Source: Verrucomicrobiota bacterium (GTDB taxonomy: Bacteria > Verrucomicrobiota > Verrucomicrobiia > Opitutales > UBA953). Taken from it: a stretch of DNA of 64,000 nt. Below are positions 3,850 to 25,603 of this stretch, piece by piece (positions within the stretch are counted from its first letter, which is position 1; each line of letters opens with the position of its first letter). The stretch spans positions 1 through 64,000 of the forward strand of contig VHDL01000009.1 of NCBI GenBank assembly GCA_016871415.1, written 5' to 3'. Below the pieces are notes generated by a model, which made no database searches, was not told the DNA's origin, and saw only the letters and a program-made list of their open reading frames with translations. A program made the translations under genes and the position numbers.

Positions 3850-4766
3850 GCCGCCCGTCCGTCAGTGACGGCGTCATCACCACGTTCCTTAGCTTAGGCG
3901 TCAACGTCGTGCTGGCCGCGGCCAAGTTCAGCGTCGGCTTCATCGCCTCCTCACAGGCGCTGATCGCCGACGGCGTCCATTCGCTCGTCGACCTCGTGAC
4001 CGACGTGGCCGCCTACGTCGGGCTCAAGTACTCGGACCTTCCGAAGGATTAGGACCATCCCCTACGGCCATCATCGTATCTCCACCCTCGCCGCGCTCCT
4101 GATATCGGCCGTCGTGGTGGCCCTCTGCGTCGGCCTGACTTGGCAATCGGGCCTCGGTCTGGTCGACGGCGGCAAGCTAGTCGTCTCGGGCGTGGCCGCT
4201 GCTTGGGTCCCAGGCGTCGCGTTGGTCGTGAAGGAGGGGTTCTACCGCTACGCCCGCCGTCAGCTCGAAAGGCTGGGCTCCAGACTCCTCATGGCCAACG
4301 CCGCCGACCATCGGGCTGACGCGGTCGCCTCGCTCATGGCCCTTGTCACGGTGCTGGTCGCCAATCTCAGTGAGGACTTGGCCGGCGCCGACACCTGGTG
4401 GGGCTGGTGCTGGCCGGTTGGCTCGGTTCCGAAGGGGCGAGGATCTTCCTTGGCGCCTGCTCCGACCTCATGGACCGCGCTCCGGCTGAATCGGTACTCA
4501 AGGACCTCAGCGAGCACATCCTCGCCACTCCGGGCGCTAAAGGATTCCACGCTTTCCGCGCCCGTCGTCTCGGTGACCGCTTCGAGGTCGATTTCCACCT
4601 GCAGGTGGCCGAGACCGCCACGGTGGCGGAAGGCCATGCCATCGCTGGACGCATCAAGGCGGACATCCTCCGCTCCCACCCCGAGGTCGTTTCCGTGCTC
4701 GTGCACGTCGAGCCTGACATGTCCCAGCACTGTAAGCGCGAAGGGCACCACGGAGGCACTTGCTGA
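3846..4766 (+). pseudogene. Broken cation diffusion facilitator (CDF) metal transporter
   Basis: The reading parts are homologous to CDF-family Zn/Co/Fe efflux transporters but split in three. Part one (3846-4049) gives the start with TM1-2 and ALIADGVHSLVDLVTD, the metal-site helix. An in-frame TAG at 4050-4052 stands where the family has Glu in DEDHPYGH, followed by DHP in the same frame. A CCCC run at 4059-4062 then shifts the frame to YGHHRISTLAALL. A second shift near 4394-4395 returns to the first frame at LVGLVLAGWLGSEGA and runs through the cytoplasmic ferredoxin-like domain to a His/Cys-rich end (SQHCKREGHHGGTC). One nonsense and two compensating indels indicate decay, or assembly error for the indels. 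Confidence 0.85.
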
Positions 4767-4767
4767 G

Positions 4768-5886
4768 TCAGCCCGGGGTCGAGTAGGTCCTGCGTCCGAA
4801 ACGACCTGCGAGCCAGGCCTGCAGGTCGAGGAAGTCCTTGGGAGGTTCGGCGACGATCGTGACAGGCTTCCCCGTCTGCGGGTGCGTGAGCGTCAGGCGG
4901 TGGGCGTGCAGCATCACGCGGGGCATGGGCCATCCGGTGAAGGCGGGGACGTCGAATTTACCGTAGGTTCGGTCGCCCAAGATCGGGTGCCCTAGGTGCG
5001 CGAGATGGACGCGGATCTGGTGCGTGCGGCCGGTGTGAGGGCAGGCGCGGATCAATGCGGCCTGCTCGCCATATTTCTCCTCCACCCGCCAGTCCGTGAC
5101 GGCTTCGCGGCCGTCTTCGCGGACCGCCATGCGCACCCGTACCGTACGGTGACGGTCGATGGCGGCGTCGATTACGCCGGACAGCAGCCGGGGCGCCTTG
5201 TCGACGAGGGCGAGGTATTCCTTCTGCGCGGTGCGCTCGGTGAACTGCGTCACCAGAGCATGGTAGGCCTTGTCGGTCTTGGCGAGCGCGATCACGCCGG
5301 AGGTCTCGCGGTCGAGACGGTGCACGACGCCGGGCCGGGGGGCGCCGCCGGCCGGTGCGAGCTTGCCCTTGGTGTGGTGAAGCAGGCCGTGCACCACCGA
5401 GACTTCGTCGGAGCCCTGGACCGGGTGCGTCAGGAGTCCCGCCGGCTTGTTGATGGCGATGAGGTGGGCGTCCTCGAGGAGCACCTCGAGGCGCAGCTTC
5501 ACGGGGCGGGCCGTGGGCTCGCCGGGCGAGGGCAGGGCGACCTCGACGGCGTCGCCGGGGTTGAGCACCGTGCGGCAGTCCGCCGGCTGGCCGTTGACCT
5601 TCACCATGCCGAGGTCGAGGGCCTTCTGCACGCGTGAGCGGCTGACGCCGTCGAGCAGCGTGGCGATGATCTTGTCCGCGCGGGCGGGCTCGAACTCGCC
5701 CGGGATGCGGGTCTTGAAGATCTCATCCGGGCGCACCTCCTCGGTCGGTACCTTGGCCGGGCGGGAAGAGTAGGGCACGCGCGGGGCGGGCCTGGACTTT
5801 CGTCCGAGCGCCCTGGCCGTGCGGGCCTGCGGCCGGGAGCCAATGCGCTTCAGCTGGGTCTTGGCGCGCTTGCGAGGCGGCGCCAT
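4768..5886 (-). CDS. RluA/RluD-family 23S rRNA pseudouridine synthase with S4 domain
   Basis: A 372-residue enzyme converting uridine to pseudouridine in rRNA. After a basic, disordered N-terminus (residues 1-45) comes an S4 RNA-binding domain (about 60-120, SRSRVQKALDLGMVKVNG) and then the catalytic domain. The hallmark PGVVHRLDRETSG (about residues 187-199) contains the catalytic Asp; TGRTHQIRVHLAHLGHPILGD follows near 285. It starts one base after the aminopeptidase stop (TAA-G-ATG), so the two form an operon. RluD is the closest subtype by the S4 domain, but the exact target uridines cannot be read from sequence. Confidence 0.92.
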   Translation of the reverse strand: MAPPRKRAKTQLKRIGSRPQARTARALGRKSRPAPRVPYSSRPAKVPTEEVRPDEIFKTRIPGEFEPARADKIIATLLDGVSRSRVQKALDLGMVKVNGQPADCRTVLNPGDAVEVALPSPGEPTARPVKLRLEVLLEDAHLIAINKPAGLLTHPVQGSDEVSVVHGLLHHTKGKLAPAGGAPRPGVVHRLDRETSGVIALAKTDKAYHALVTQFTERTAQKEYLALVDKAPRLLSGVIDAAIDRHRTVRVRMAVREDGREAVTDWRVEEKYGEQAALIRACPHTGRTHQIRVHLAHLGHPILGDRTYGKFDVPAFTGWPMPRVMLHAHRLTLTHPQTGKPVTIVAEPPKDFLDLQAWLAGRFGRRTYSTPG

Positions 5887-5887
5887 C

Positions 5888-7006
5888 TTACTTGGACTTG
5901 CCCAGCAGGTAGGCGGGATTGAGCTTCTGGAGCTCCTTGGCGACGAAGAGCCCGTCCTTGCGGATCACCTTGCCGTCGAAGCGGATCTCCCCGCCGCCGA
6001 ATTCGGGACGCTGGATGCAGACCATGTCCCAGTGCACCGAGGAGTGATTGCCGTTGTCCGTCGTCTCGTAGCACTTACCCGGCGTGAAGTGGAAGGACCC
6101 CGCGATTTTCTCGTCGAAGAGGATGTCCTGCATCGGGCTGAGGATGTGCGGGTTGAAGGCGATGGCGAACTCCCCGATGAACCGCGCGCCCTCGTCGGTG
6201 TCGAGGATCTCGTTGAGGCGCTTGGTGTTGTTCGCGGTGGCCTCGACGATCCTGCCCTTGCGGAAGACCAGGCGGATGTTTTCGAAGGAGACGCCCTGAT
6301 AGATCGTCGCGCAGTTGTACTGCAGCGTGCCATTGACGGAATCCTTGATCGGCGCGGTGAAGACCTCGCCGTCGGGGATGTTGTATTCGCCGCCGCAGGG
6401 CACGGCGTTCATGCCCTTGATGCTGAACCTGAGGTCAGTACCCGGGCCGGTGATGCGGACCTCGTCGGTCTTCATCATGGCCCGTTTCAGCGCCTCCATG
6501 CCCGGAATCATGCGGGAGTAGTCGAGCGTGCAGACCCGAAAGTAGAAGTCGGCGAAGCCCTCGGTGCTCATCTTGGCCTGCTGGGCCATGGACGAAGTCG
6601 GCCAGCGGAGCACGACCCACTTGGTCTTGTTGACGCGGTGGTCGAGGACCGGGCGCATGATTTCGGAGTTCAGCCTGGCGTGGCCGGCGGGCACGTCACT
6701 GCCCTCGAAGATGTTGTCGGAGCCGCGCACGGCGATGAAGGCCTGCATCTTCCTCATGCGGGCGAGCTCGTGAGCGGCGGTCAGCTTGAACTGTGCCTTG
6801 GTGCCGTCCTTGACCATCTCGCGGCCGACGCGGGCACGGTGCAGGTTCACCATCGGGGTGGCGCCGCGGGCCCGGGCTGCGCGGATGAGCGCGATTACGA
6901 AGTCGTCCGGCACTTCATGCGCATCGATCAGTACGTTCTCACCCCTCTTCAGCCGGGTCGAGAAGCCGCAAAGCACGTCGGCCAGTTTTCCGTATCGAGG
7001 GTCCAT
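5888..7006 (-). CDS. M29-family (thermophilic-type) leucyl aminopeptidase
   Basis: A 372-residue metal-dependent aminopeptidase of family M29 (aminopeptidase T/AmpS), removing N-terminal residues from peptides in the cytoplasm. Typical segments are [15 protein letters not shown] near residue 22, [13 protein letters not shown] (about 205), [15 protein letters not shown] (about 222) with metal-ligand glutamates, and [11 protein letters not shown] (about 325) with ligand His and Asp. The start at 7006 (MDPRYG) is preferred over an in-frame upstream ATG at 7090, whose extra 28 residues are low-complexity and run into the divergent TPR gene. First gene of the unit with the pseudouridine synthase. 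Confidence 0.92.
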
Positions 7007-7088
7007 GCCGGAGGTTTGCCCCGGGGCGGGGCGTTTCCAAGGCGAAAGGAGCGCTTGCGAAGGACGCTCTTCGGTGGAGCATGCAGGC

Positions 7089-7457
7089 ATGAGCGACTCG
7101 GCCGGAGATGCGAGACGGCTGGCCGATGAGGCCGCGTTCTACTTCGCCGTCGGCGATGAGAAGGCCGCGCTCGCCTGTCTGGAGTCGGCGGTGGGGGCCG
7201 ACCCGGCTTGCTTCGAAGCATGGCTGGCCGCCGCGGAGATTCACTTCGCCTCCCGTCGGTTGGACGAGGCCTTGGCCGCCGCCGAGCGTGCGCTGGGCTT
7301 GCGTCCCAAGGACGTGCATGTGCACACCTCGCTCTCACGCATCTGGATGGAGCGGGGCGACAAGACCAAGGCCGAGCATCACGGGGCCCAGGCCCGCATC
7401 TTCGGCTGGGGTCAGCAGCTCAAGGAGCCGGACGCAGGGCAGGGCGATCTGGTTTGA
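7089..7457 (+). CDS. Small TPR-repeat protein
   Basis: A 122-residue protein made of about three tetratricopeptide repeats: residues 10-40 ([20 protein letters not shown]), 44-75 ([22 protein letters not shown]) and 78-108 ([21 protein letters not shown]). TPR proteins act as protein-protein adaptors. It has no signal peptide. It is divergent from the aminopeptidase with an 82-base gap and stands alone before the groES control region. The partner is unknown. Confidence 0.8.
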
Positions 7458-18528: not shown

Positions 18529-19875
18529 TCAGTCCTGGTTGACAGAGTCGGCGATGGTGAAGAGCAGCTCGGCCGAGGAGACCGACTCTCCGTTCACGAA
18601 GCACTCGCACTCGGCCGCGGCGATCCGTCCGCGCACCTTGGTCAGCTTGGCCCGGATCTCCAGCACGTCTCCCGGCACCACGGCCTTGCGGAATTTCACC
18701 TTGTCCGCGCTCATGAAGAAGACGACCTTTGGCGCGTCATCGGCCTGATCTCGGCGCAGCATGATCAGGCCGGAGGCCTGAGCCATGGCTTCGACCTGCA
18801 GGACGCCGGGCATGATGGGCTGGCCCGGGAAGTGGCCCTGGAAGTAGGGCTCGTTGATGGTGACGTTCTTGATGGCCACCAGGGAGTCGTCGGTCAGCTC
18901 CACCACGCGGTCGACCATGACGAAGGGGTAGCGGTGGGGCAGGGCGTTCAAGATCTGCCGGATGTCGAGGGCGTTGCCGAGGGGGGAGATGGGGGCTTCG
19001 ACCTTCGGCTTCTTAGCGGCCGCACGGGGTTTCGCCGCCGTCTTGGAGTCCTGCCACTGCTGGCGGATCGCGGCGGCCAGACGGGCGTTCAGGGCGTGCC
19101 CCGGGCGGACGGCGATGATGTGCGCCTTGACGCGCACGCCGGCGAGCACGATGTCGCCGATGATGTCGAGAATCTTGTGCCTGACCAGCTCGTCGCTGAA
19201 GCGCAGGGGCTCCTTGCTGACGATTTTGTCACCCTTGAGGAGGATGGCGGAGTCGAGCGAGCCGCCCTGGATGAGACCCTTCTTGAGGAGGTTCTCGATG
19301 TCCTCGTAGACGGTGAAGGTGCGCGCGGGCGCAATCTCCGAGGCGTAGGTCTCGGGGTCGATGTCAATCGTGAGGTGCTGGGTGTGGATGCCGCGGTCAT
19401 CCGTCGAGGTGCAGGTGATGCGCAGGCCGTCGAAGGGCAGGGCGATGATGGACCGGCTGCCCTCGTTGATGGTGATGGGGTGGGTGAGCGTGAAGGTCTC
19501 GCGGTCCTGGTCCTGGTTCACCAGGCCGCACTGATGCACGAGGGTAGTGAAGGGCCTCGCCGATCCGTCCACGATTGGCGGTTCGGAGGCGTCGAGCTCG
19601 ACGACGGCGTTGTCCACGCCCATGCCGATGAGGGCCGAGAGGACGTGCTCGATGGTGTGCAGCTTGACCGACTCCGAAGACACCGTGGTCTTCCTTTCCA
19701 ATTCGGTGACCATCTCCGAGACCGGGCGTACCTCGGGCTTGCCGATGAGGTCGACGCGGCGGAAGACGATGCCGGTGTCAGGGGCGCCGGGACACAGGGT
19801 GAGGGTCACCTCCTGGCCAGTGTGCAGGGCCTTGCCCTTGACCGAGGCGGCTTTGCCGAGGGTGCGCTGTTTCAT
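18529..19875 (-). CDS. lpxC-fabZ: LpxC-FabZ fusion: UDP-3-O-acyl-GlcNAc deacetylase / 3-hydroxyacyl-ACP dehydratase
   Basis: A 448-residue fusion. Residues 1-275 are LpxC, the zinc deacetylase that commits to lipid A; zinc ligands are H73 and H77-region (HTIEHVLSA), H233 and D237 (HKILDIIGD), and H260 (RPGHALN). An Ala/Lys/Pro linker (about 277-295) leads to FabZ, the dehydratase of fatty acid elongation, with [13 protein letters not shown], catalytic H348 ([11 protein letters not shown]) and E362 (VEAMAQ). Both compete for 3-hydroxyacyl-ACP flow between lipid A and phospholipid, so fusion ties the two. All catalytic residues are present. Fusion is known from Bacteroidota and Verrucomicrobiota. 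Confidence 0.97.
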
Positions 19876-22103: not shown

Positions 22104-22745
22104 ATGAAGCCCGCCTTCCCCTGCCTGGTCCTCGACGGCTCCGCGCGAGAAGGGGTCCGGGTCGGCGTGTCCGTGGACGGACGGTGGCGCTCCGAGGCGT
22201 CCTCCGAGAAGGGTCCGCTCGAAGCCGCGGCGGACTGCGCGCAGTCTGCCCTGGTTTCAGCCGGCATCTCGGTCGACGATGTTCGTTCGTTCGCGGTGTG
22301 CGCGGGACCGGGCTCGATTCTCGGCGTGCGGCTCACCGCGATGATGGTCCGGACATGGACGGCCCTCTCCGACCGTCCCTGCTTCGTCTGGAACGCGCTC
22401 GAGGCCGTCGGTCTAGCCACGGCCCGTGCCGGCATCAGTCCGCCTTTCGCCGTGGTCTCGGAATCCCGCATGAAGCGCTGGAATGTGATACCTTTCTCCT
22501 TGGACGGCGTTCCCGGCGATTGCGTCGAGCTCGAGGCCGCGCAGGTCGGTGCGCTGGGCCTGCCGCTGGTGGGTCTCACCGAAGGCGCGCCGTTCGCGAC
22601 GCTCAAGGCGGCGGTCGCCTGGCCGCAGCTACCCGCTTTCTTCGCGCAGGGGCTGCTGCTCAAGGCCGAAGCCCGGCCGGACGCGCTCAACCCGGCTTCC
22701 GAATTCGCGGTGTGGTCCGGTGAGCGGCATCGCGGATCCAAATGA
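22104..22745 (+). CDS. tsaB: tRNA threonylcarbamoyladenosine synthesis protein TsaB-like
   Basis: A 213-residue ASKHA-fold protein of the TsaB type, partner of TsaD in making t6A37 on ANN-decoding tRNAs. Seen: CLVLDGSAREGVRVGV at the N-terminus (nucleotide-fold start), and the characteristic AVCAGPGSILGVRLTAMMVRTW (about residues 67-88) matching the G-P-G-S-x-T-G-x-R motif, here with ILG. Sequence beyond residue 100 is poorly conserved in this family. It overlaps alr by 4 bases (ATGA). Somewhat diverged, so confidence is moderate. Confidence 0.8.
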   Translation: MKPAFPCLVLDGSAREGVRVGVSVDGRWRSEASSEKGPLEAAADCAQSALVSAGISVDDVRSFAVCAGPGSILGVRLTAMMVRTWTALSDRPCFVWNALEAVGLATARAGISPPFAVVSESRMKRWNVIPFSLDGVPGDCVELEAAQVGALGLPLVGLTEGAPFATLKAAVAWPQLPAFFAQGLLLKAEARPDALNPASEFAVWSGERHRGSK

Positions 22746-23890
22746 GAAGGGACGCATCAGGATTCGCCGCCCGCTCCTGGGCCGAGATCGACCTGCCCGC
22801 GATCGACCGCAATGTCGGTCGGATCAAGCAGGCGCTGCCGGCCCGCATCCGTTACGTGGCGGTGGTCAAGGCCGACGCCTACGGCCATGGGATGCCGGAG
22901 GTGGCCTCGCGGCTCCTTCAGGCGGGCGTCGACTGCTTCGCGGTCGCCAATGTCTCCGAGGCCGCCCGTCTCCGCGAGGTCGGGCACGACGGTGACATCC
23001 TGGTGCTCAGTCCCTCCCTGCCTGAGGAGCATGACCGAGCGGTCCACATGGGGCTGGACCTCACGCTCAATTCGCCGGACGAAGCCCGCTCGCTCGCCGC
23101 GGCCGCCGCCCGCGCCGGACGGCGCGCTCGGGCCCACATCAAGGTCGACACGGGCATGGGACGCGCCGGGATCTGGCATGAGAAGGCCCTCGCGCTCATC
23201 CGCCTGGTCCGTGAATCCCAGGATCTGGAATGGCGCGGCTTCTACACGCACTTCTCCGAGGCGGAATCGGATCATGGTTTCACGGCGGAGCAGCGCCGCA
23301 TCTTCCTGTCCCTGCTCACCGCGGTGCCGGAATCCGAACGCACGCGGCTGATGATTCACGCCGACAACAGCGCAGGCCTCGAGACGTTCTCCCGGGAGAC
23401 GCCCTTCAACGCCGTGCGCATCGGGCTGATGCAGTACGGGCTGCCTCCGGCGGAGGGCTCGTTTCTGCAGAGTCTCAGGCCGGAGCCGGTGCTGTCCTTC
23501 CATGCGCGCGTGGTGCTGGTCAAGCGGCTCCCCGCGGGCACGGCCGTCAGCTACGGGCGCACCAAGGTGCTGGAGCGTGAATCCCGCGTGGCCGTCGTCG
23601 CGGTTGGCTACGGCGACGGGGTGCCCACCGCCGCCAGCAACCGCGGACGTTTCCTCATCCGGGGACGTCGCTGCCCAGTCCTCGGGCGCGTGACGATGGA
23701 CCAGACGGTGGTGGACGTGACCGACGTCCCGGAGGCCGCGGTCGGCGACGTGGCCACGATGCTCGGAGCCCAAGGGGCCGACCGCATCACGGTGGCCGAA
23801 TTCTGCGCGTGGTCGGACTGCATTCCCTGGGAGGCCCTCTGCACGCTGACGCAGAGGGTGCAGCGCGTCTACCGGTCCGATCGCACCTGA
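22742..23890 (+). CDS. alr: Alanine racemase
   Basis: A 382-residue PLP enzyme making D-alanine for peptidoglycan. The PLP lysine K43 is in VVKADAYGHG; the substrate region HADNSAGLETF and VRIGLMQYGLPP follow near 200-235; the second catalytic base Tyr is in VAVGYGDGVPTAASNRG (about 285), and LGRVTMDQTVVDVTD is the C-terminal domain signature. It is coupled to tsaB upstream and followed after one base by a glutamate racemase gene, so D-Ala and D-Glu supply are in one unit. Confidence 0.96.
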   Translation: MRRDASGFAARSWAEIDLPAIDRNVGRIKQALPARIRYVAVVKADAYGHGMPEVASRLLQAGVDCFAVANVSEAARLREVGHDGDILVLSPSLPEEHDRAVHMGLDLTLNSPDEARSLAAAAARAGRRARAHIKVDTGMGRAGIWHEKALALIRLVRESQDLEWRGFYTHFSEAESDHGFTAEQRRIFLSLLTAVPESERTRLMIHADNSAGLETFSRETPFNAVRIGLMQYGLPPAEGSFLQSLRPEPVLSFHARVVLVKRLPAGTAVSYGRTKVLERESRVAVVAVGYGDGVPTAASNRGRFLIRGRRCPVLGRVTMDQTVVDVTDVPEAAVGDVATMLGAQGADRITVAEFCAWSDCIPWEALCTLTQRVQRVYRSDRT

Positions 23891-23891
23891 G

Positions 23892-25151
23892 ATGAGGACG
23901 CCGCTTGCATGCCTTCTGGCCTGTCTGGCCGCCTTGGGCGCGCCGGCGGACGAACTGGTCGACCGCGTGGTGAATCACGCGCGCGCGCATCCGGAAGGGG
24001 ACGCCCCCGCGAGCTTTCGTGCCTCGGATTATCGAGGTGACCTCCGCGACCTGCCGATTGGCGTGTTCGACTCGGGGGTCGGAGGGCTGACGGTGCTCGA
24101 GGCCATCAAGGCGCATGACCGTCACGACAATCGCACGGGGGCCGAAGGCCCGGACGGCATCCCGGACTTCCAAGGCGAGAGGTTCATCTATCTCGGCGAC
24201 CAGGCCAACATGCCCTACGGGAATTACGCCGCCGCAGGTCGCACGGACTTCCTGCGCGAACTCATCCTGCGCGACGCAGTCTTTCTCCTCGGCCGGCGTC
24301 ACCTCCACGGGGAGAAGCCGCCGGTGAAGGCGGTCGTGATCGCCTGCAACACGGCCACGGCCTACGGGCTCGAGGACCTGCGCGCCGCCTTCAAGGCGTG
24401 GGGGCTTCCGGTCATCCTGGTCGGCGTGGTCGAGGCCGGCGCCAAGGGACTTCAAGAGACGGCCAAGGGCGCTCAAGGGGGCGTGGCCGTGATGGCCACG
24501 GTGGGCACGTGCGCTTCCGAAGCCTACCCTCGCGCAATCTCCAAGGTGACCGACCGTCCGGTGCGTCAGCTGGGATCCGCCACGCTGGCCGCCGCCATCG
24601 AGGGCGACCCGTCGGTGAAGGCTTCCGTGAGGGACATCATCCGGGCCGATGTCGGCGACTTCCTGAAGGCTGCGGCCGCCTCCGCCCCGGACCGGCCCTT
24701 CGACACGGTCGTGCTCGGCTGCACGCACTACCCTCTGGTGGCTGAAGAGATCCACGCGGCCTTCGCCCACTGGCGCGATCACCGTGCTTCGGACGGCTCA
24801 AGGCCTTATGAGCGCCTCGTCGCGCCGACGCTCAGGCAGGTGGATCCCGCCGCGTGGACGGCCGAAGCGCTCTGGCGCTCCTTGCAGGGCGCCAACCTCA
24901 TGGCGACGAAGCCGTCTTCAGCCGGCGATCTGTTCTATCTCTCCGTCCCGAATCCGGCCTGGCCGGGCGTCGGCCTCGCCGCCGACGGCTCGCTGAGCTA
25001 CGAGTACAAGTACGGACGTCAGCCTAGTCAGGTCGGCCGGGAGGATACGCTCAACGTGCCGATGACGCCGGAGAAGCTTCCCGGCGCGACCGCGAAGCTT
25101 GTCCGGGAGAAGCTCCCGTTGACCTGGCGCAGCCTGCAGTCGGCCCGCTGA
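23892..25151 (+). CDS. Glutamate racemase-like protein with signal peptide and C-terminal extension
   Basis: A 419-residue protein whose core is glutamate racemase (MurI), which makes D-Glu for peptidoglycan without a cofactor. Core motifs: IGVFDSGVGGLTVLEA (56-71), FIYLGDQANMPYG (98-110), first catalytic Cys C152 in ACNTATAYGL and second C277 in GCTHYPLVAEE. Unlike cytosolic MurI (about 260-290 residues), it has an N-terminal signal-like segment (residues 1-19, cleavage near GAPA) and about 100 extra C-terminal residues. No alternative start lies between the signal and the core. It directly follows alr. It may act outside the cytoplasm, or on another amino acid; the usual cytosolic MurI may be elsewhere. 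Confidence 0.85.
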   Translation: MRTPLACLLACLAALGAPADELVDRVVNHARAHPEGDAPASFRASDYRGDLRDLPIGVFDSGVGGLTVLEAIKAHDRHDNRTGAEGPDGIPDFQGERFIYLGDQANMPYGNYAAAGRTDFLRELILRDAVFLLGRRHLHGEKPPVKAVVIACNTATAYGLEDLRAAFKAWGLPVILVGVVEAGAKGLQETAKGAQGGVAVMATVGTCASEAYPRAISKVTDRPVRQLGSATLAAAIEGDPSVKASVRDIIRADVGDFLKAAAASAPDRPFDTVVLGCTHYPLVAEEIHAAFAHWRDHRASDGSRPYERLVAPTLRQVDPAAWTAEALWRSLQGANLMATKPSSAGDLFYLSVPNPAWPGVGLAADGSLSYEYKYGRQPSQVGREDTLNVPMTPEKLPGATAKLVREKLPLTWRSLQSAR

Positions 25152-25162
25152 AGCCTTTCGCC

Positions 25163-25603
25163 TCAGGGCTGCGTTTCGGACTCCCGGCGAACGGCGACGA
25201 AGGTCGCGATCGCCAGGCCCGCCAGGGAAAGGCCGGCGGACAGGAGCTGGGTCTCCGCCATGACCGTCTGGTAGACATGCGGGAGCAGCGTAGCGAGCCC
25301 GGTGCCGACCGAGGTACGGTCCAGCGGATGACGCGGGGCGAGGAGCATGCCGGCGCTCCAGAGCAGGGCGGGGGCCATGCTCCAAGGGGCGTCAGGAGCG
25401 GTGAGCCATGGCCGCCAATCCAGGAAGATCTCGGCCGTCATCACCAGGCAGACGAAGCACACGAGGCCGAGGATAAGCTTCTCCGCCAGGTGCTGCGGGC
25501 GGTCCGCGCCGGCCAGCAGGGCGTCATTGCGCGTGGCCAAGTGGCGAACATAGACCGTCGCTCCCAGCGCGATGAGGACTACCAGATAGACGATGGTCTC
25601 CAT
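25163..25603 (-). CDS. Hypothetical multi-pass membrane protein
   Basis: A 146-residue protein with about four membrane segments: residues 2-19, 43-60, 78-90 and 120-138. No charged functional motif is conserved to the eye. It lies at the 3' end of the minus-strand sugar-acid gene run, 34 bases after uxaC, and converges on the racemase gene. I do not recognise the family. Confidence 0.7.
   Translation of the reverse strand: METIVYLVVLIALGATVYVRHLATRNDALLAGADRPQHLAEKLILGLVCFVCLVMTAEIFLDWRPWLTAPDAPWSMAPALLWSAGMLLAPRHPLDRTSVGTGLATLLPHVYQTVMAETQLLSAGLSLAGLAIATFVAVRRESETQP

Follow-up and report, generated by a model that had tools for sequence, protein, structure and literature searches.

A predicted exported glutamate racemase beside alr in a verrucomicrobial genome, and its probable role in D-glutamate recycling

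Introduction

The glutamate racemase MurI is commonly counted as a cytosolic enzyme of wall building, and this includes its occurrence in genomes of the PVC superphylum. Among the broad-spectrum racemases that work in the periplasm, the Bsr enzymes belong to the alanine racemase family, which uses pyridoxal phosphate (PLP). BsrV, BsrF and RacK are amino acid racemases exported to the envelope (PMC7890096, PMC12502697), and the D-amino acids made by the periplasmic Bsr racemases enter both peptidoglycan and the medium (PMC7890096). MurI is missing from many PVC members, and the DapF protein of Chlamydia, which shows glutamate racemase activity, is one PVC answer to this gap (PMC5885031). A search of the open-licence literature under the phrases secreted, exported or periplasmic glutamate racemase found no paper.

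Here we describe a MurI-like racemase with a predicted export signal, encoded in a stretch of 64,000 nucleotides from a Verrucomicrobiota genome (contig VHDL01000009.1), referred to below as the window. The protein shares with MurI/RacE (TIGR00067; PDB 1zuw, 2jfo) the fold, the two catalytic cysteines, the catalytic Asp, Glu and His, and the residues that contact glutamate. It differs from these cytosolic enzymes in its predicted export signal, a linker, two inserts (residues 74-95 and 336-395) and an invariant Cys207, and also in forming part of a separate clade, scoring below the TIGR00067 cut-off and having no apparent tie to wall synthesis. Like BsrV, BsrF and RacK it would be an exported envelope racemase, although here export is predicted; unlike the Bsr enzymes it has no alanine racemase domain and is cofactor-independent by family. 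Chlamydial DapF belongs to an unrelated family and serves wall synthesis.

Results

The racemase gene and its surroundings

The features of the gene are listed in Table 1. The racemase ORF is separated by a single base from the stop codon of alr (23888-23890). A sequence-only reading of the window had described a glutamate racemase adjoining alr, with all racemase residues present, both cysteines included, and a typical signal peptide at the N-terminus, and all of this was borne out by the analysis described here.

Table 1. Positions in the window of alr, the racemase gene and parts of the racemase; counts refer to the 61 aligned family sequences
Feature	Position	Strand	Basis
alr, alanine racemase, directly 5' of the racemase	22742..23890	+	TIGR00492, 314 bits (cut-off 168)
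Predicted exported MurI-like glutamate racemase, 419 aa, ATG start	23892..25151	+	TIGR00067, PF01177, AF2 model, RacE match
Residues 1-19, predicted as a Sec signal peptide with cleavage after A-P-A	23892..23948	+	Sequence; 69 homologs against Alr controls
Conserved linker, residues 20-52, H-A-x-A-H-P-x-G ... D-L-x-x-L-P-I-G	23949..24047	+	Alignment A1; missing from ordinary MurI
Catalytic Asp60 and Ser61 (DSGVGG)	24069..24074	+	61/61 invariant
Family-specific insert, residues 74-95	24111..24176	+	Gap when aligned with MurI structures
First catalytic Cys152 with Asn153, Thr154	24345..24353	+	61/61 invariant
Family-specific invariant Cys207 (GTC)	24510..24512	+	61/61; Ile in aligned E. faecalis MurI
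Catalytic Glu237	24600..24602	+	61/61 invariant; aligns to MurI Glu
Second catalytic Cys277 with Thr278, His279 (GCTHYP)	24720..24728	+	61/61 invariant
Family-specific C-terminal insertion, residues ~336-395	24897..25076	+	Model secondary structure and VIA alignment

The adjacency of alr and the racemase is restricted to the genus of the window organism and, being found in this genus alone, was dropped as a clue to function. Convergent with the racemase lies a gene for a small membrane protein that matches no Pfam family (25163-25603, minus strand), a homolog of which adjoins alr in genome G005 (locus L145), where the racemase is missing. Elsewhere in the window, a single ORF on the minus strand (18529-19875) reads by eye as a fusion of an LpxC deacetylase and a following FabZ-type dehydratase domain, so that one protein would serve both lipid A and fatty acid synthesis.

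Family assignment, predicted fold and active site

PF01177 is the only Pfam domain above its cut-off in the protein (51 bits, cut-off 31), and the Pfam search found no PLP alanine racemase domain (PF01168/PF00842). The MurI profile TIGR00067 matches at 112.4 bits, which is under its curated cut-off of 146.65, and when genomes of the genus were searched with the profile, the complete sequences belonging to the exported clade gave 87-105 bits. All the matches in a sequence search of the PDB are glutamate racemases. Aspartate racemase and other Asp/Glu racemases (TIGR00035, CuyB) have the PF01177 superfamily and the general fold in common with the window protein, but match it less well, TIGR00035 giving 24.6 bits against a cut-off of 93.1.

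The AlphaFold2 model is confident (mean pLDDT 93.6), residues 1-20 being its sole low-confidence part, and contains the two-domain MurI fold including the last helices. The best structural match is RacE (1zuw; Z 28.4, 2.3 Å, 255 aligned residues within 52-416). MurI structures give Z scores of 21-28, while aspartate racemases reach at most 18 (best 17.9). The sequence-only reading had seen a 100-residue extension, which turns out not to be a single block. The protein has about 150 extra residues: the signal (1-19), the linker (20-52), which is structured, the insert (~74-95), and two regions of loops or hairpins (~295-310 and ~336-395), after which the final helices match MurI again.

Conservation was assessed in the 61 sequences of alignment A1. 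The catalytic residues (Table 1) and the glutamate-contact residues P108, Y109, G110, T203 and T206 are invariant throughout. The protein is therefore predicted, from sequence and model, to be an active glutamate racemase of the two-cysteine type. Arg376 is a further invariant residue of the exported family. In the insert at 74-95, D76, N80, D88 and D92 are likewise invariant in 61/61, and possibly form a metal site. A copy from the genus that lies outside the alignment (L035:5983-7236) has Glu in place of the catalytic Asp of the DSG motif (ESGVGG).

Export signal

The N-terminus of the racemase, MRTPLACLLACLAALGAPA before the predicted cleavage point and DE after it, shows the n/h/c layout typical of Sec signal peptides. 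Export features were scored across 69 homologs with a readable start, taken from the best 80 of 236 relatives, by a home-made feature score and not by SignalP, with hydrophobicity on the Kyte-Doolittle scale. A hydrophobic stretch above 2.0 was found in 64/69, a net-positive start also in 64/69, and a site of the A-x-A type in 62/69. As a control, the Alr starts at the same loci peak at 1.1. The copy from Latescibacterota (L112) has a lipobox in place of the standard signal. Ordinary MurI proteins of related genomes start just ahead of the DSG motif, and have no hydrophobic stretch where the start is clear. The racemase thus appears to be secreted out of the cytoplasm.

A start further inside the gene, which had been raised as a point against export, is unlikely, because the ATG and the hydrophobic start are kept in the copies from the genus. 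An internal GTG (codons 25/26) was rejected, since a protein begun there would lose part of a helix that is structured and conserved.

Distribution and relation to ordinary MurI

Relatives were collected from the GTDB genomes, the best 80 of 236 being kept. The exported clade has 80 or more loci, spread over Verrucomicrobiota, Planctomycetota, Acidobacteriota and Latescibacterota, and a Prosthecobacter strain is among its cultured carriers; a search of viral contigs found no relative. In a tree built from 36 exported sequences and 11 ordinary ones, the two groups separate with 100/100 support, though the long branches call for caution. Ordinary MurI above the curated cut-off resides together with the exported copy in 12/30 genomes. 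By these sequence comparisons the predicted exported racemases are a family apart from ordinary MurI, and a widespread one.

A search for murD gave no credible Mur ligase match in 5/30 carrier genomes, whose completeness is unstated. These are G061 (an isolate, L050), G062, G063, G077 (L098) and G079 (L103). Most Planctomycetales are reported to have lost peptidoglycan synthesis genes (PMC8567305). As the Mur ligases are missing, the racemase in these carriers cannot serve the usual wall synthesis. Two of them (L098 and L103) own the most telling neighbours and fusion, described in the following section.

Fusions and neighbouring genes

Each telling fusion or neighbour, apart from the GH5 domain, was seen in only one or two loci among the best 80 of 236. 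In L103 the racemase is fused to a domain of the D-aminoacylase type (D-aminoacylase 5e-72; N-acyl-D-glutamate deacylase 3e-65), and in L097 and L106 to a DD-carboxypeptidase. A gamma-glutamyltransferase gene lies directly 3' of the racemase, on the same strand, in L065 and L098 (455 and 443 bits against TIGR00066, cut-off 358). In L098 an M19 dipeptidase comes next and an SDF symporter 5 kb further along, all on the same strand. In L110 an SDF symporter is itself directly 3' of the racemase on the same strand, and in L091 an amidase gene adjoins it, again on the same strand. SDF symporters were present in 8/8 genomes tested. The fusion partners and neighbours, as assigned by sequence, are extracytoplasmic enzymes of peptidoglycan, D-amino acid or gamma-glutamyl metabolism.

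In eight planctomycete loci the racemase is fused to a GH5 domain that has its own hydrophobic, signal-like N-terminus. This partner was set aside as a clue, its model being of modest confidence (pLDDT 74) and resembling beta-mannanases and mannosidases, with no clear target. The GH5-like N-terminal ~370 residues are 60-71% identical among L093, L079, L095, L100, L105 and L108. The L103 fusion gene (4189-7344) has an in-frame stop between two racemase halves, from decay or an assembly error.

The link with gamma-glutamyltransferase, first met in Planctomycetota, was tested independently within the genus of the window organism. An exported gamma-glutamyltransferase was found in 7/12 racemase carriers and 1/25 non-carriers (Fisher p 0.0005). 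When independent evolution of the two genes was simulated on the Alr tree, 6/3214 runs were equally extreme. The test rests on one gene tree and on incomplete MAGs; five carriers have no gamma-glutamyltransferase in their assembly, and one non-carrier has it. In the window genome a gamma-glutamyltransferase with a signal-like start sits on another contig.

Presence in the genus and the source of wall D-glutamate

Whole-genome statements rest on profile searches. These found no other gene for MurI or an Asp/Glu racemase in the window genome, which is 99.5% complete, and no ordinary murI in any of the 37 genomes searched from the genus. The window genome contains murD, and its organism therefore needs D-glutamate. 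It also contains dapF, and by analogy with Chlamydia the wall D-glutamate of the genus may come from DapF. A D-amino acid transaminase as source is unsupported, the sole class-IV transaminase found being ilvE (306 bits against TIGR01122, cut-off 245.6; 196 against TIGR01121, cut-off 277); promiscuity of this enzyme is conceivable.

The sequence-only reading had taken cytosolic MurI to be essential, had suggested that this could be a second racemase, and had counted the absence of another murI, together with evidence of a cytosolic location, against export. No second gene exists in the searches above, but the premise fails in the PVC superphylum, many members being without MurI and Chlamydia DapF racemising glutamate (PMC5885031). 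Since PVC members can do without MurI, the missing second murI is no argument against export.

The alr locus is readable in 37 genomes of the genus. Of these, 12 have the exported racemase, each time after alr (G016 has a partial copy), and 25 do not; one of the 25, G018, stops at a contig edge and is strictly uncertain. In the close relative G005 the site is empty, alr being followed directly by the next gene. On the Alr tree, presence of the racemase requires seven changes, at least four of them forced. Members of the genus can thus do without the gene, whose distribution is patchy, and it cannot be the source of D-glutamate for most of them. It looks like an accessory gene, and differs in this from a house MurI.

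The 3' flank of alr is apparently a variable spot in the genus. Other small genes lie there in racemase-less members (L149, L152, L157, L158, L161 and L170), and several of them read as exported thioredoxin-like proteins.

Discussion

We consider that the protein is probably an exported, periplasmic, cofactor-independent glutamate racemase with a mainly catabolic role, which turns freed D-glutamate into L-glutamate for uptake. D-glutamate in the stem peptides of peptidoglycan is bound through its gamma carboxyl. The racemase would be exported by the Sec route and its signal peptide then removed; exported gamma-glutamyltransferase and peptidases would release D-glutamate from stem peptides or from other gamma-glutamyl compounds. 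The racemase would equilibrate D- and L-glutamate outside the cytoplasm by the two-cysteine mechanism of MurI, without ATP or cofactor, and an SDF-family glutamate/dicarboxylate symporter would import L-glutamate and so pull the racemisation. We infer the substrate, the D-to-L direction and the coupling to the symporter. Recycling of D-glutamate outside the cytoplasm is preferred to wall supply because the family is predicted to be exported and some carriers are without peptidoglycan ligases. The earlier proposal, of an exported racemase acting on D-amino acids released from peptidoglycan, is therefore retained as the best reading, with D-glutamate as the probable substrate, in view of the signals across phyla, the fusions and the neighbours; what has to be given up is that it is a second racemase.

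It is relevant that Vibrio fischeri needed mutations in a different carrier gene, gltS, to grow on low D-glutamate (PMC12502697), which supports the view that glutamate carriers can discriminate against the D-enantiomer. In the same species BsrF gave rescue once its secretion signal had been taken off (PMC12502697). D-glutamate occurs in river water, and bacteria isolated from rivers grow on D-amino acids (PMC6131576).

Some considerations weigh against a salvage role. Racemases are reversible, so that sequence leaves the direction unfixed; an oxidising periplasm could hamper thiol catalysis; and alr, the neighbour in the window, encodes a cytoplasmic enzyme and is not a salvage gene. An alternative is that the enzyme runs from L to D, supplying external D-glutamate for wall editing or regulation, for the dispersal of competitors or for signalling. 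This would resemble the periplasmic Bsr racemases, whose products reach peptidoglycan and medium (PMC7890096), and would suit the fusion to DD-carboxypeptidase in L097 and L106. However, the carriers without Mur ligases own no such wall to edit, and the D-aminoacylase fusion together with the adjoining gamma-glutamyltransferase, dipeptidase and symporter suggests breakdown, which makes the L-to-D direction unlikely.

A MurI-fold protein could also be exported to act on another substrate, such as a gamma-glutamyl or N-blocked form of glutamate or a different acidic amino acid, or to serve in binding. The family inserts with their invariant D76, N80, D88 and D92, the extra invariant Cys207 and Arg376, the TIGR00067 score under its cut-off and the GH5 fusions are all compatible with this. 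We regard it as distinctly improbable, given that every glutamate-contact residue of MurI is invariant and that aspartate racemase profiles and structures match less well.

Least probable of all is that the racemase, with its N-terminus as an uncleaved anchor or skipped, works in or at the cytosol and alone provides the organism with the D-glutamate of its own wall. In favour of this, it is the sole MurI-family gene in a genome that has the D-glutamate-requiring murD, and it follows alr immediately, in the same orientation. Against it, the gene is missing from 25/37 genomes of the genus with a readable alr locus, and the searches of the genus found no ordinary murI; dapF can supply D-glutamate, on the example of Chlamydia (PMC5885031); signals with a cleavage-site pattern recur, along with one lipobox; 12/30 related carrier genomes have ordinary MurI too; and the gene is carried by genomes without Mur ligases.

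Returning to the preferred catabolic reading, we see an even chance that the family marks an undescribed pathway of extracytoplasmic D-glutamate salvage, leading from gamma-glutamyltransferase or D-aminoacylase through the racemase to the symporter, and used even by bacteria that build no peptidoglycan and so consume walls or gamma-glutamyl polymers made by other organisms. A match to the MurI profile in the PVC superphylum may then flag an exported catabolic enzyme and not one of wall building. If this is true, the tally of D-glutamate makers in the PVC superphylum would be corrected, and the case for DapF or another route would become stronger. Envelope racemases would then include a second kind that works without PLP, and lake bacteria would have a concrete way of using D-glutamate from dead cells.
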